Made by a program: the position numbers and the translations under genes
Notes under the pieces: model-generated
The model's database searches: none
What the model saw: only the letters and a program-made list of their open reading frames with translations
What the model was told of the DNA's origin: nothing
Assembly (NCBI RefSeq): GCF_010093225.1
Contig: NZ_PDWM01000005.1
Coordinates: 1-64,000, forward strand
Origin: Pseudoxanthomonas koreensis
Lineage (GTDB): Bacteria; Pseudomonadota; Gammaproteobacteria; Xanthomonadales; Xanthomonadaceae
Direction of reading: 5' to 3'
DNA: 64,000 nucleotides
Shown: positions 15,091-27,788 of the stretch, piece after piece
Layout of the letters: each line of letters opens with the position of its first letter
Position numbering within the stretch: the first letter of the stretch is position 1

Positions 15091-15100
15091 GTGGCCAGAG

Positions 15101-15157
15101 TAAAAGGGGACGGAGGCAATTGAGCACATGTGCTTAATTGCCTCCGTCCCCTTTTTA
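15101..15157. repeat. 57-bp near-perfect palindrome (MITE/REP-like)
   Basis: The left arm starts TAAAAGGGGACGGAGGCAAT and the right arm is its complement, ending in CTTTTTA. Each arm is about 28 bases and they meet at GCACATGTGC. They differ by one indel in the A-run and one substitution. It lies between the tRNA-Ser terminator and the DUF6165 gene. Inverted repeats of the form GGGGAC...GTCCCC are known beside REP-associated tyrosine transposases in gammaproteobacteria, but no such transposase gene is in this window. Confidence 0.75.
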
Positions 15158-26542: not shown

Positions 26543-26806
26543 ATGACCAACGCCGCTGCCCGTCTCGACCTGCGCCTGAGCCCTGCGGACAAGGCGCGCA
26601 TTGCCCGCGCCGCCGACCTGCGCGGCGTGCCGCTGTCCGCATTCGTGCGCGATGCGGTACTGCGCGAAGCCGAAAGCATCATGGCTGCCGAACTGACCGT
26701 CACCCTGTCGGTGGAAGAGTCCCGGCGCCTCCTCGAGGCGCTGGATGCTCCCTTCCAGCCCAATGCCAGGCTCAAGAAGGCCCTCGTCCGCGTCACGCAG
26801 GCCTGA
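26543..26806 (+). CDS. DUF1778 (TacA/AtaR-like) antitoxin
   Basis: 87 residues. The N-terminal ribbon-helix-helix DNA-binding part reads RLDLRLSPADKARIARAADL followed by RGVPLSAFVRDAVLREA. The C-terminal part, ending LDAPFQPNARLKKALVRV, is the toxin-wrapping segment typical of DUF1778 (FxxPPxPNxxL-like). A strong AGGAGG lies six bases before ATG 26543. The toxin gene starts three bases after the stop codon. It should neutralise the acetyltransferase and repress the operon jointly with it. Confidence 0.9.
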   Translation: MTNAAARLDLRLSPADKARIARAADLRGVPLSAFVRDAVLREAESIMAAELTVTLSVEESRRLLEALDAPFQPNARLKKALVRVTQA

Positions 26807-26809
26807 TGC

Positions 26810-27298
26810 GTGCTCGTTGTCGAGCAACTCAAGCCCAGGCGACATGACCGCGAGGGATTCACTTGCGGTGAGCCGACGCTGGATGCCTACCTGCGCCATC
26901 AGGCCGCCCAACACCATCGCGACGGCATAAGCACCGCACATGTCCTGGTGGATGACGCCGATCCGGCCCGCATCCTCGGCTACTACAGCCTGTCCGCTGC
27001 CCAGCTTCTGCTGACCGACCTGCAGGAGGCCGATCGCAAGCGCCTGCCCGGCTACCCGGTACCGGCTATCCGGATGGGACGGCTGGCCGTCGCGGCCAGC
27101 GAGCAGGGCAAGGGACATGGCGATTACCTGCTGGCGCATGCCGTGGCGCGCAGCCTGGGGCTGCGCGAGCAGCTCGGAGTGCGCGTGTTGCTGGTAGATG
27201 CACTGCACGAGACAGCGGCCCGCTTCTATCGCGCCTATGGCTTCCGCGAAGCCACGGCGAACTCACGGACGTTGTATCTGCCGTTGGGGGATGTCTGA
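26810..27298 (+). CDS. GNAT-family toxin (TacT/AtaT-like tRNA acetyltransferase)
   Basis: 162 residues, starting GTG at 26810. GNAT fold with the acetyl-CoA loop RLAVAASEQGKGHGDYLLAH and the C-terminal ALHETAARFYRAYGF strand-helix. The N-terminal FTCGEPTLDAYLRHQAAQHH is the usual TacT-family opening. Known members acetylate the amino group of aminoacyl-tRNAs and stop translation until peptidyl-tRNA hydrolase repairs them; which tRNA this one targets is unknown. Three bases separate it from the antitoxin gene, a standard type II module. Confidence 0.9.
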   Translation: MLVVEQLKPRRHDREGFTCGEPTLDAYLRHQAAQHHRDGISTAHVLVDDADPARILGYYSLSAAQLLLTDLQEADRKRLPGYPVPAIRMGRLAVAASEQGKGHGDYLLAHAVARSLGLREQLGVRVLLVDALHETAARFYRAYGFREATANSRTLYLPLGDV

Positions 27299-27331: not shown

Positions 27332-27411
27332 GGGTCAGAGTGCACTTTCCGGAGTTGGCCCAGGCTGGGTGTCGTCGCGGATCAGCACCCAGGGAAAGTG
27401 CACTCTGCCCC
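27332..27411. repeat. 80-bp nested inverted-repeat element
   Basis: The outer arms CAGAGTGCACTTTCC and GGAAAGTGCACTCTG are perfect over 15 bases and extend with GGG/CCC across one mismatch. Inside them CTGGGTG pairs with CACCCAG. The layout, opening GGGTCAG and closing CTGCCCC, resembles REP-type elements mobilised by tyrosine transposases (inference). It lies 33 bases after the toxin gene. Confidence 0.65.
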
Positions 27412-27544
27412 CTGTTTCGCTGTTTCGCCGTCCATGAAACGTGAAGGGCCCCTTGCGTGCGCCCTCGCCGAATCAGCTAAAGTGAATCCCGAGCCAAGTC
27501 AGACCGCTACTGAAAGCGGGGGGACGTCGGGGCGAGAGGGGGAT

Positions 27545-27617
27545 GCACTGCGGTGCTTCGCGCCTTGCCCCTTCGGGGCGACGGCTTCGCCGTCGTGTCC
27601 ACCCGCTGCGCGGGTGG
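27545..27617. other. Run of four GC-rich hairpins
   Basis: Four stem-loops follow one another: GCAC/GTGC (27545-27556), GCCCC/GGGGC with a UUCG-type loop (27567-27579), GACGG/CCGTC with a UUCG-type loop (27580-27594), and CCACCCG/CGGGTGG (27599-27617). I see no coding sense in 27299-27695. They lead straight into a broken tRNA-like 3' end and could be a small structured RNA or repeat debris. Confidence 0.4.
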
Positions 27618-27625
27618 TCGAACCT

Positions 27626-27657
27626 GGGGTTCGAATCAAGCTCACCTCTCTCCGCCA
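27626..27657 (+). pseudogene. Inverted partial copy of the tRNA-Ser(GGA) 3' end
   Basis: The plus strand reads a T-arm-like GGGGTTCGAATC, seven unrelated bases, then CCTCTCTCCGCCA, which is exactly the acceptor strand plus CCA of the real tRNA-Ser(GGA) lying just beyond on the minus strand. No 5' half of a tRNA precedes it, so it is a fragment, not a gene. Confidence 0.6.
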
Positions 27658-27708
27658 GATACGCAAAAGCCCCCTTGCGGGGGCTTGTGCGTATCTGGCG
27701 GAGAGAGG
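27645..27708. repeat. 64-bp inverted repeat spanning the tRNA-Ser(GGA) 3' end and its terminator
   Basis: The 21-base arms CCTCTCTCCGCCAGATACGC(A) and its complement flank the GC hairpin AAGCCCCC/GGGGGCTT (27667-27686). That inner hairpin, followed by TT on the minus strand, is the probable terminator of tRNA-Ser(GGA). The outer arms duplicate 13 bases of the tRNA itself plus its trailer, so the precursor could fold into an alternative long stem. Confidence 0.75.
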
Positions 27709-27788
27709 GGGATTCGAACCCCCGAAGCGCGGTTTAGACGCTTACACACTTTCCAGGCGTGCTCCTTCAACCACTCGGACACCTCTCC
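27696..27788 (-). tRNA. tRNA-Ser (anticodon GGA)
   Basis: A 93-nt class II tRNA on the minus strand. The acceptor GGAGAGG pairs with TCTCTCC (one G-U pair), the discriminator is G and CCA is encoded. The anticodon loop CTGGAAA gives GGA, reading UCC/UCU. The long variable arm is visible. It is divergent from dnaX, the usual place in this family. Confidence 0.97.

Follow-up and report, generated by a model that had tools for sequence, protein, structure and literature searches.

The inverted copy of a tRNA 3′ end that lies behind tRNA-Ser(GGA) in the window, that is, the whole 64-kb stretch of DNA that was analysed, seems to belong to a decayed tRNA-linked repeat of the RtT/TLR type, a kind of repeat widespread in bacteria and little understood, of which it would form the 5′ arm, a reading to which, together with the mechanism proposed below, we give a probability of about three in four. 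The sequence shows the plan of such a unit to be D, terminator, I, core hairpins and D′, in which D is the end of the host tRNA, I its inverted copy and D′ its direct copy, and the window unit, in which an intact D′ has been lost, is probably a relic. The D-I-D′ plan, the host range and the terminator-spanning variant look like extensions of the TLRs known from E. coli, and no description of the inverted copy was found in the literature searched, the coverage of which was partial. With ends that match the host, empty sites that are exact and cores that are alike behind several tRNAs of one genome, it becomes testable how these units spread and how their ends are kept in line with the host.

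The Palindrome and the Unit behind tRNA-Ser(GGA)

As the sequence-only reading had described, the minus strand carries an exact mirror of the last 13 nt of the tRNA, CCA included (CCTCTCTCCGCCA), and of 8 nt of trailer (GATACGCA), and beyond this mirror come a single mismatch and then the terminator stem; taken together, the inverted arms are 30 nt long (27645-27674 and 27679-27708), 97% complementary and separated by a 4-nt loop. The degenerate T-arm that had been placed on the far side is also present, as a second inverted repeat of 12 nt (27626-27637 and 27711-27722). Among all hairpins of the window with loops of 3-8 nt, the D-I palindrome is the strongest, with 28 pairs and at most one mismatch, the best hairpin in ten first-order shuffles of the window having at most 13 pairs. 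That reading covered the inverted repeat but not the sequence that follows, namely a hairpin-rich core and D′, a worn form of the direct repeat typical of normal integration, which matches the tRNA end at 13 of 16 positions, counting the next two bases. The closest named relative locus compared is that of Pseudoxanthomonas jiangsuensis (89% identity over 973 bp).

Table 1. Features of the tRNA-Ser(GGA) locus in the window.
Feature	Position	Strand	Evidence and remarks
tRNA-Ser(GGA)	27696..27788	-	ARAGORN; Rfam tRNA 50.8 bits; host end D = last 16 nt (27696-27711)
Terminator-like hairpin AGCCCCCGCAAGGGGGCTTTT, between D and I	27665..27685	-	sequence and repeat analysis; putative terminator
I, inverted copy of trailer, CCA and acceptor 3′ strand (GCGTATCTGGCGGAGAGAGG)	27645..27664	-	inverted-repeat search
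Remainder of I, inverted degenerate T-arm (GATTCGAACCCC)	27626..27637	-	12 nt, 100%
Match to Rfam RF00391 (RtT), full-length (1-130)	27527..27666	-	37.1 bits, E 1.9e-5
RtT/TLR core	27546..27635	-	R1 52 bits (window sequence among those used for R1); independently, Rfam RtT
Copy of T-arm 5′ strand (AGGTTCGACC) within core	27616-27625	-	sequence comparison
Four core hairpins	27552-27617	-	sequence; covariation in relatives
D′, degenerate direct copy of tRNA 3′ end (GCATCCCCCTCTCGCCCC)	27529..27546	-	repeat search; intact D′ in sister species G087
Remnant common to repeats at this genome's contig ends (~27 bases), abutting D′	27502..27528	.	repeat comparison

The full-length RtT match is the only one in the genome of the window at E ≤1, but its score falls under the Rfam gathering score of 45 and thus short of family membership. 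The core begins 61 nt past the tRNA end (27635 vs 27696) and on the same strand, which is where TLRs lie, and the orthologous unit in the sister species G087 also has the 3′ identity of 18-19 bp to the host RNA that characterizes TLRs. D′ of the window lacks this identity, and the window copy is therefore labelled a degenerate derivative and not a full TLR member. The remnant that abuts D′ is taken for the right-hand end of an IS3-like element, to judge by the appearance of the end of its open reading frame.

Other identities were considered for the palindrome and rejected. ARAGORN finds no second, convergent tRNA gene on the plus strand; matches to Rfam miRNA and plastid families lie far under their cut-offs and are regarded as palindrome artefacts, and a match to sX4 (44.9 bits, cut-off 70) lies over the tRNA and extends into the inverted copy.

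Relation to Known tRNA-Linked Repeats

Of the TLRs, known from E. coli since 1978, strain K-12 has 22 at ten loci, and their last 18-19 bp are those of the 3′ end of the upstream RNA; a 2021 paper states that they are so far without a known function and then proposes a role for three of them (PMC8144298). In Pasteurellaceae, RNAs of the RtT family have been reported to adjoin tRNA genes (PMC4986893). The units described here resemble the E. coli TLRs, such as RtT (rttR) of tyrT/tyrV and RrB of rrnB, in their location behind a tRNA or 5S gene, in a 3′ end that copies that of the host, in a hairpin core and in tandem copies. Unlike them, the unit in the window has a tRNA-Ser host, a degenerate D′ and an inverted copy that spans the terminator and takes in CCA and trailer.

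RrB is transcribed and lies between the rrnB terminators T1 and T2, a likeness to the terminator-spanning plan (PMC8144298), and the layout of this widely used double terminator may rest on the same plan. R1, a covariance model of the core from which rrnB is absent, gives a weak match to E. coli rrnB (19.7 bits, E 1.5e-4 over 1.1 kb). An inverted 5S end at rrnB T1 matches at 12 of 18 positions, a weak match without significance on free alignment, where 301 of 500 shuffles do as well.

Relatives and Host Range

Of the 297 genomes searched in the family, 51 have an RtT match at E ≤0.01 and 11 have one above the Rfam cut-off, and all 30 loci inspected (that of the window and 29 fetched for the best-scoring genomes) sit behind a tRNA, namely Ser(GGA), Ser(CGA), Ser(GCT), Tyr or Gln. 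In intact relatives, D is followed by a spacer or terminator, next by I and the hairpin core, and last by D′. The model R1 was built without the arms from 31 core sequences, including that of the window and three E. coli tyrT units. At E ≤1e-3 it has matches in 89 of the 299 genomes searched in the order and in 102 of the 369 searched in the class; at E ≤1e-4 it has matches in 42 of 398 genomes of the phylum, 23 of these 42 being in two families outside the class. At the locus of the window itself, the junction was compared in sister species by eye and by hits of a core HMM: eight have the unit (seven with the spacer terminator; G251 without), three have rearranged units, G172 is strongly diverged and G060, G113 and G136 have none.

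The core HMM gave 267 hits in 215 of 236 loci, corresponding to 247 unique units, and a strand control on these units found a tRNA within 150 nt upstream on the same strand for 161, downstream on the same strand for 32 and on the opposite strand for one. About ten of the 40 HMM hits that have no tRNA resemble REP-type repeats by eye (G221, G453, G514 and others) and look like cross-hits of the core model. At two loci the core lies inside the T-loop of a whole tRNA copy, which ARAGORN reads as tRNA-Arg(CCT) or tRNA-Ser(GGA) once the core is removed. A degenerate unit was also observed about 62 nt behind a tmRNA gene (locus L102, genome G744).

Ends of the Units and Their Host tRNAs

The match between the units and their hosts was tested in 203 units at 164 loci, that of the window included, all with a nameable tRNA on the same strand within 700 nt; this set is what remains of the 247 units after removal of 43 with no host tRNA within 700 nt or with one that ARAGORN could not name, and of one lacking a full window of comparison. 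D′ is an exact copy of the last 16 nt of the host in 104 of the 203 units and agrees with it at 14 or more positions in 134, and the end of the own host beats those of all other isotypes in 149, with ties in 12; units are related to one another, hence these counts are not numbers of independent events. The mean match of D′ is 13.63 of 16 with the real hosts and 10.19 (sd 0.12) with permuted ones, and 56 non-host tRNAs give a mean of 7.91 of 16, one of them reaching at least 14. The dependence of the 5′ arm on the host is weaker, its match falling from 6.21 to 5.19 of 8 under permutation (sd 0.05) in an 8-nt test that was chosen after looking at the units and that replaced a 12-nt version with a weak result (8.24 vs 6.91 of 12). 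With Arg hosts, the 5′ arm has no host match (4.47 vs 4.53 permuted). By eye, many low-scoring D′ copies start right and then diverge, as in the window.

Host-matched ends extend over many tRNA types. Among the 17 host anticodon types, 15 (those of Ser, Tyr, Gln, Arg, Glu and Thr) include at least one unit whose D′ has 14 or more of 16 matches and beats the other isotypes, and no such unit was found for Leu and Pro, with one unit each; a single Trp host has a D′ of 16/16. In genome G1267 (locus L405), the host tRNA is two C shorter than in most relatives; of the three units behind it, the first two carry the shortened copy and all three the shortened inverted arm, the last D′ being diverged, and these unit ends look like a case of concerted evolution.

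Similar Cores behind Different Hosts

Closely similar cores occur in one genome behind different tRNAs. In G526, cores that are 92% identical lie on different contigs behind Arg-CCG and Ser-GCT, and their D′ match the Arg end at 13 of 16 positions (best other isotype 12) and the Ser end at 16 of 16 (best other 12), respectively. In G531, cores 90% identical lie, again on different contigs, behind Gln-TTG and Ser-CGA, with D′ matches of 16/16 in the first Gln unit, 8/16 in the second and 11/16, a tie, in the Ser unit. A third pair, in G825, with cores 98% identical at two Ser loci less than 2 kb apart, is uninformative as to the ends because both tRNAs share one 3′ end.

Mean core identity is 0.755 for cores of one genome behind different hosts (70 pairs), 0.672 for those behind the same host in different genomes (849 pairs) and 0.645 where neither is shared (6438 pairs), a comparison that can be no more than suggestive since many of the genomes compared are distant. 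On a rough tree of 122 short cores, the amino acid of the host changes 39 times (minimum 5, shuffled mean 54), and the genome, for 86 cores, 50 times (minimum 30, shuffled mean 74). A wider reading, which we offer tentatively as a possibility well below an even chance, is that TLR/RtT is a chameleon element, the mobile or gene-converting core of which would spread among the stable-RNA genes of Pseudomonadota, taking a direct and an inverted copy of the 3′ end of each new host, so that it could excise or persist without harm to the tRNA, and borrowing the 3′-end processing of the host.

RNA Folding and Proposed Mechanism

For the function of the units and their mode of spread, we infer the following steps. 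Most transcripts would end at the terminator and give ordinary tRNA, while readthrough RNA would carry I, the core and D′, and I would pair either with D′, in the RtT fold, or with D. Trimming of the small RNA would take place at D′, which resembles a tRNA 3′ end; in E. coli, the annotation of RttR extends just to the CCA of its copy, and both transcription and processing of some E. coli TLRs have been shown by others. At the DNA level, units would insert precisely at the 3′ end of the tRNA, their copy number could change between direct repeats, and recombination, selection for pairing or both would keep D′ and I in step with the host tRNA. The remaining working part of the window unit, if any, would be its extended terminator hairpin.

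The core helices covary in relatives: in 15 Ser-type units, 96.3% of the cells of the core helices are paired and 34 are two-sided vs 11.0 after shuffling, and further pair types in the same 15 units show no excess over shuffles (17 vs 17.4). ViennaRNA predicts acceptor self-pairing of 0.92-0.94 in five terminator-type transcripts cut 36 nt past the tRNA, and native acceptor pairing falls to 0.00 when the inverted copy is included (a value of 0.94 listed with the copy for locus L013 comes from a transcript cut too early to contain I), thus bearing out the suggestion of the sequence-only reading that the acceptor strand of the precursor could mispair with the copy. This predicted loss is not equivalent to harm, as the functional tRNA of E. 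coli tyrV gives the same prediction (0.02). In long transcripts a swap of partners is predicted, the acceptor pairing with D′ and D with I; at equilibrium, this combination is more stable than the native fold, by 1.1-15.2 kcal/mol, in each of the eight cases folded, including E. coli. These values refer to equilibrium secondary structure alone. The idea that D′ sequesters I and so protects the tRNA was rejected, since D′ rescued the native acceptor in none of 11 cases (≤0.14). These folding results speak against the mechanism proposed above, as do the worn D′ and low RtT score of the window unit, the rarity of a good D′ in the terminator-type class, the missing 5′-arm match with Arg hosts, the lack of an excess of further pair types and the fact that the exact insertion was seen at another tRNA in another genus.

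The Terminator-Spanning Variant at tRNA-Ser

A genome collection was scanned for the variant with a pattern that fixes 10 + 10 bases, which returned at least 118 stretches. Among the matches listed, at least 90 palindromes lie at a tRNA-Ser end, 88 of them unique (GCT 40, CGA 29, GGA 10 and TGA 9), and no tRNA was called at the palindrome in 28 of the 118 loci. Of the 88 listed loci, 64 belong to Lysobacterales, and among the rest are Alcanivoracaceae (4), Idiomarinaceae, Rhodocyclaceae, Oxalobacteraceae and single metagenome bins labelled Rhodobacterales and Clostridia. Outside the bases fixed by the pattern, the arms of the listed matches track each other on the acceptor side (4.93 vs 4.14 of 6 shuffled). 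D′ is kept at 14 or more of 16 positions in only five of the 88 listed loci, so a working RtT fold is doubtful in the terminator-type class, and the good I and worn D′ of the window represent, among these matches, the usual state.

D and I remain alike at loci with a decayed D′, which would also be expected if the palindrome were a functionless mutational product, in which template switching during replication at the terminator hairpin reverse-copies the tRNA end and keeps correcting the palindrome. The identity of I to D declines outward from the terminator among the matches listed (0.95, 0.93, 0.90, 0.85, 0.65, 0.65), in line with such copying, and at locus L316 the palindrome runs on through the T-arm. 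Nevertheless, 72 of the 88 listed loci go on within 60 nt with the RtT-core-like motif GTTCGR, which simple fold-back copying would not create, and the I arm is also present in units that have no spacer terminator; template switching is thus considered a possible but not a likely origin.

Empty and Filled Sites

Evidence for insertion comes from the tRNA-Ser(CGA) locus of one genus, for which 35 genomes were searched and 30 loci compared. Eight loci are empty, ten have an exact distal copy of the last 12 nt of the tRNA, eight have a unit-like spacer without an exact copy and three a remnant, the tRNA being absent from the stretch in one; filled loci contain one, two or three units (G159, G1266 and G1267, respectively). 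In G159, a unit of 158 bp is flanked by two copies of a 24-bp direct repeat, GAATCCCCCCCTCTCCGCCAGATT, and the empty alleles have a single copy of GAATCCCCCCCTCTCCGCCAGATT followed by the same terminator region. This exact insertion bounded by direct repeats was thus seen at tRNA-Ser(CGA) in a genus other than that of the window, in which the distal repeat is degenerate.

A direct repeat with exact empty sites in a related genus is also what is found with tyrosine-integrase elements in tRNA 3′ ends, and the units could be non-autonomous miniature cassettes moved by such integrases, with the tRNA 3′ end as the attachment site. Moreover, two larger elements, of ~5.8 and 9.5 kb, share the same tRNA-Ser(CGA) end in two genomes of that genus, flanked by copies of the tRNA end of 21 nt (L448) and 17 nt (L449), and the integrase of L448 was checked with Pfam (DUF6538 and Phage_integrase). 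However, the units differ from integrative elements in their size of ~160 bp, in having no gene of their own that was seen, in the inverted copy and in ends that match many tRNAs; a fixed attachment site would not yield a host-matched D′ and I behind many tRNA types, and the integrases would be no more than candidates for acting on a unit. This origin therefore seems rather improbable to us, slightly more so than template switching.

Behind tRNA-Ser(GGA) of two sister species (L050 and L063, in G113 and G136), what appears by eye to be the start of an integrase gene stands in place of the repeat. In other unit-less relatives (L051, L053, L055, L058 and L061), a sequence that looks like SRP RNA lies within about 110 nt behind this tRNA.

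Rival Readings of the Inverted Copy as a Terminator or a Scar

An extended, or bidirectional, functional terminator, in which the inverted copy merely lengthens the stem, would be in keeping with the occurrence of the palindrome at at least 88 tRNA-Ser loci and with trailer halves that follow their partners outside the fixed bases (5.83 vs 3.92 of 6 shuffled, among the matches listed). However, the copy sits past the U-run and should thus not aid termination of the tRNA transcript; it takes in CCA and host-specific acceptor bases, and the RtT core and D′ are left unexplained, which makes this explanation doubtful. A one-off recombination scar, proposed in the sequence-only reading and suggested at first sight by a copy that is inverted and not direct, is very improbable, as the copy is conserved at at least 88 unique tRNA-Ser loci in several orders, including the distant relatives that this reading had named as decisive, with arms that follow their own tRNA, and a worn direct copy is present as well.

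Other Sequences in the Window

Three further elements were observed in the window. A toxin-antitoxin-like pair, with a TacA1-type antitoxin (PF08681, 1.5e-19) and a GNAT acetyltransferase, is encoded at 26546-27298 (+), and a palindromic sequence that is REP-like by eye (GAGTGCACTTTCC...GGAAAGTGCACTC) lies at 27338-27412, between the acetyltransferase gene and the IS3-like remnant. A palindrome of 23 pairs (AAAAGGGGACGGAGGCAATT...), presumably akin to a REP/RAYT-type element, is located at ~15100-15150, about 80 nt behind tRNA-Ser(CGA).
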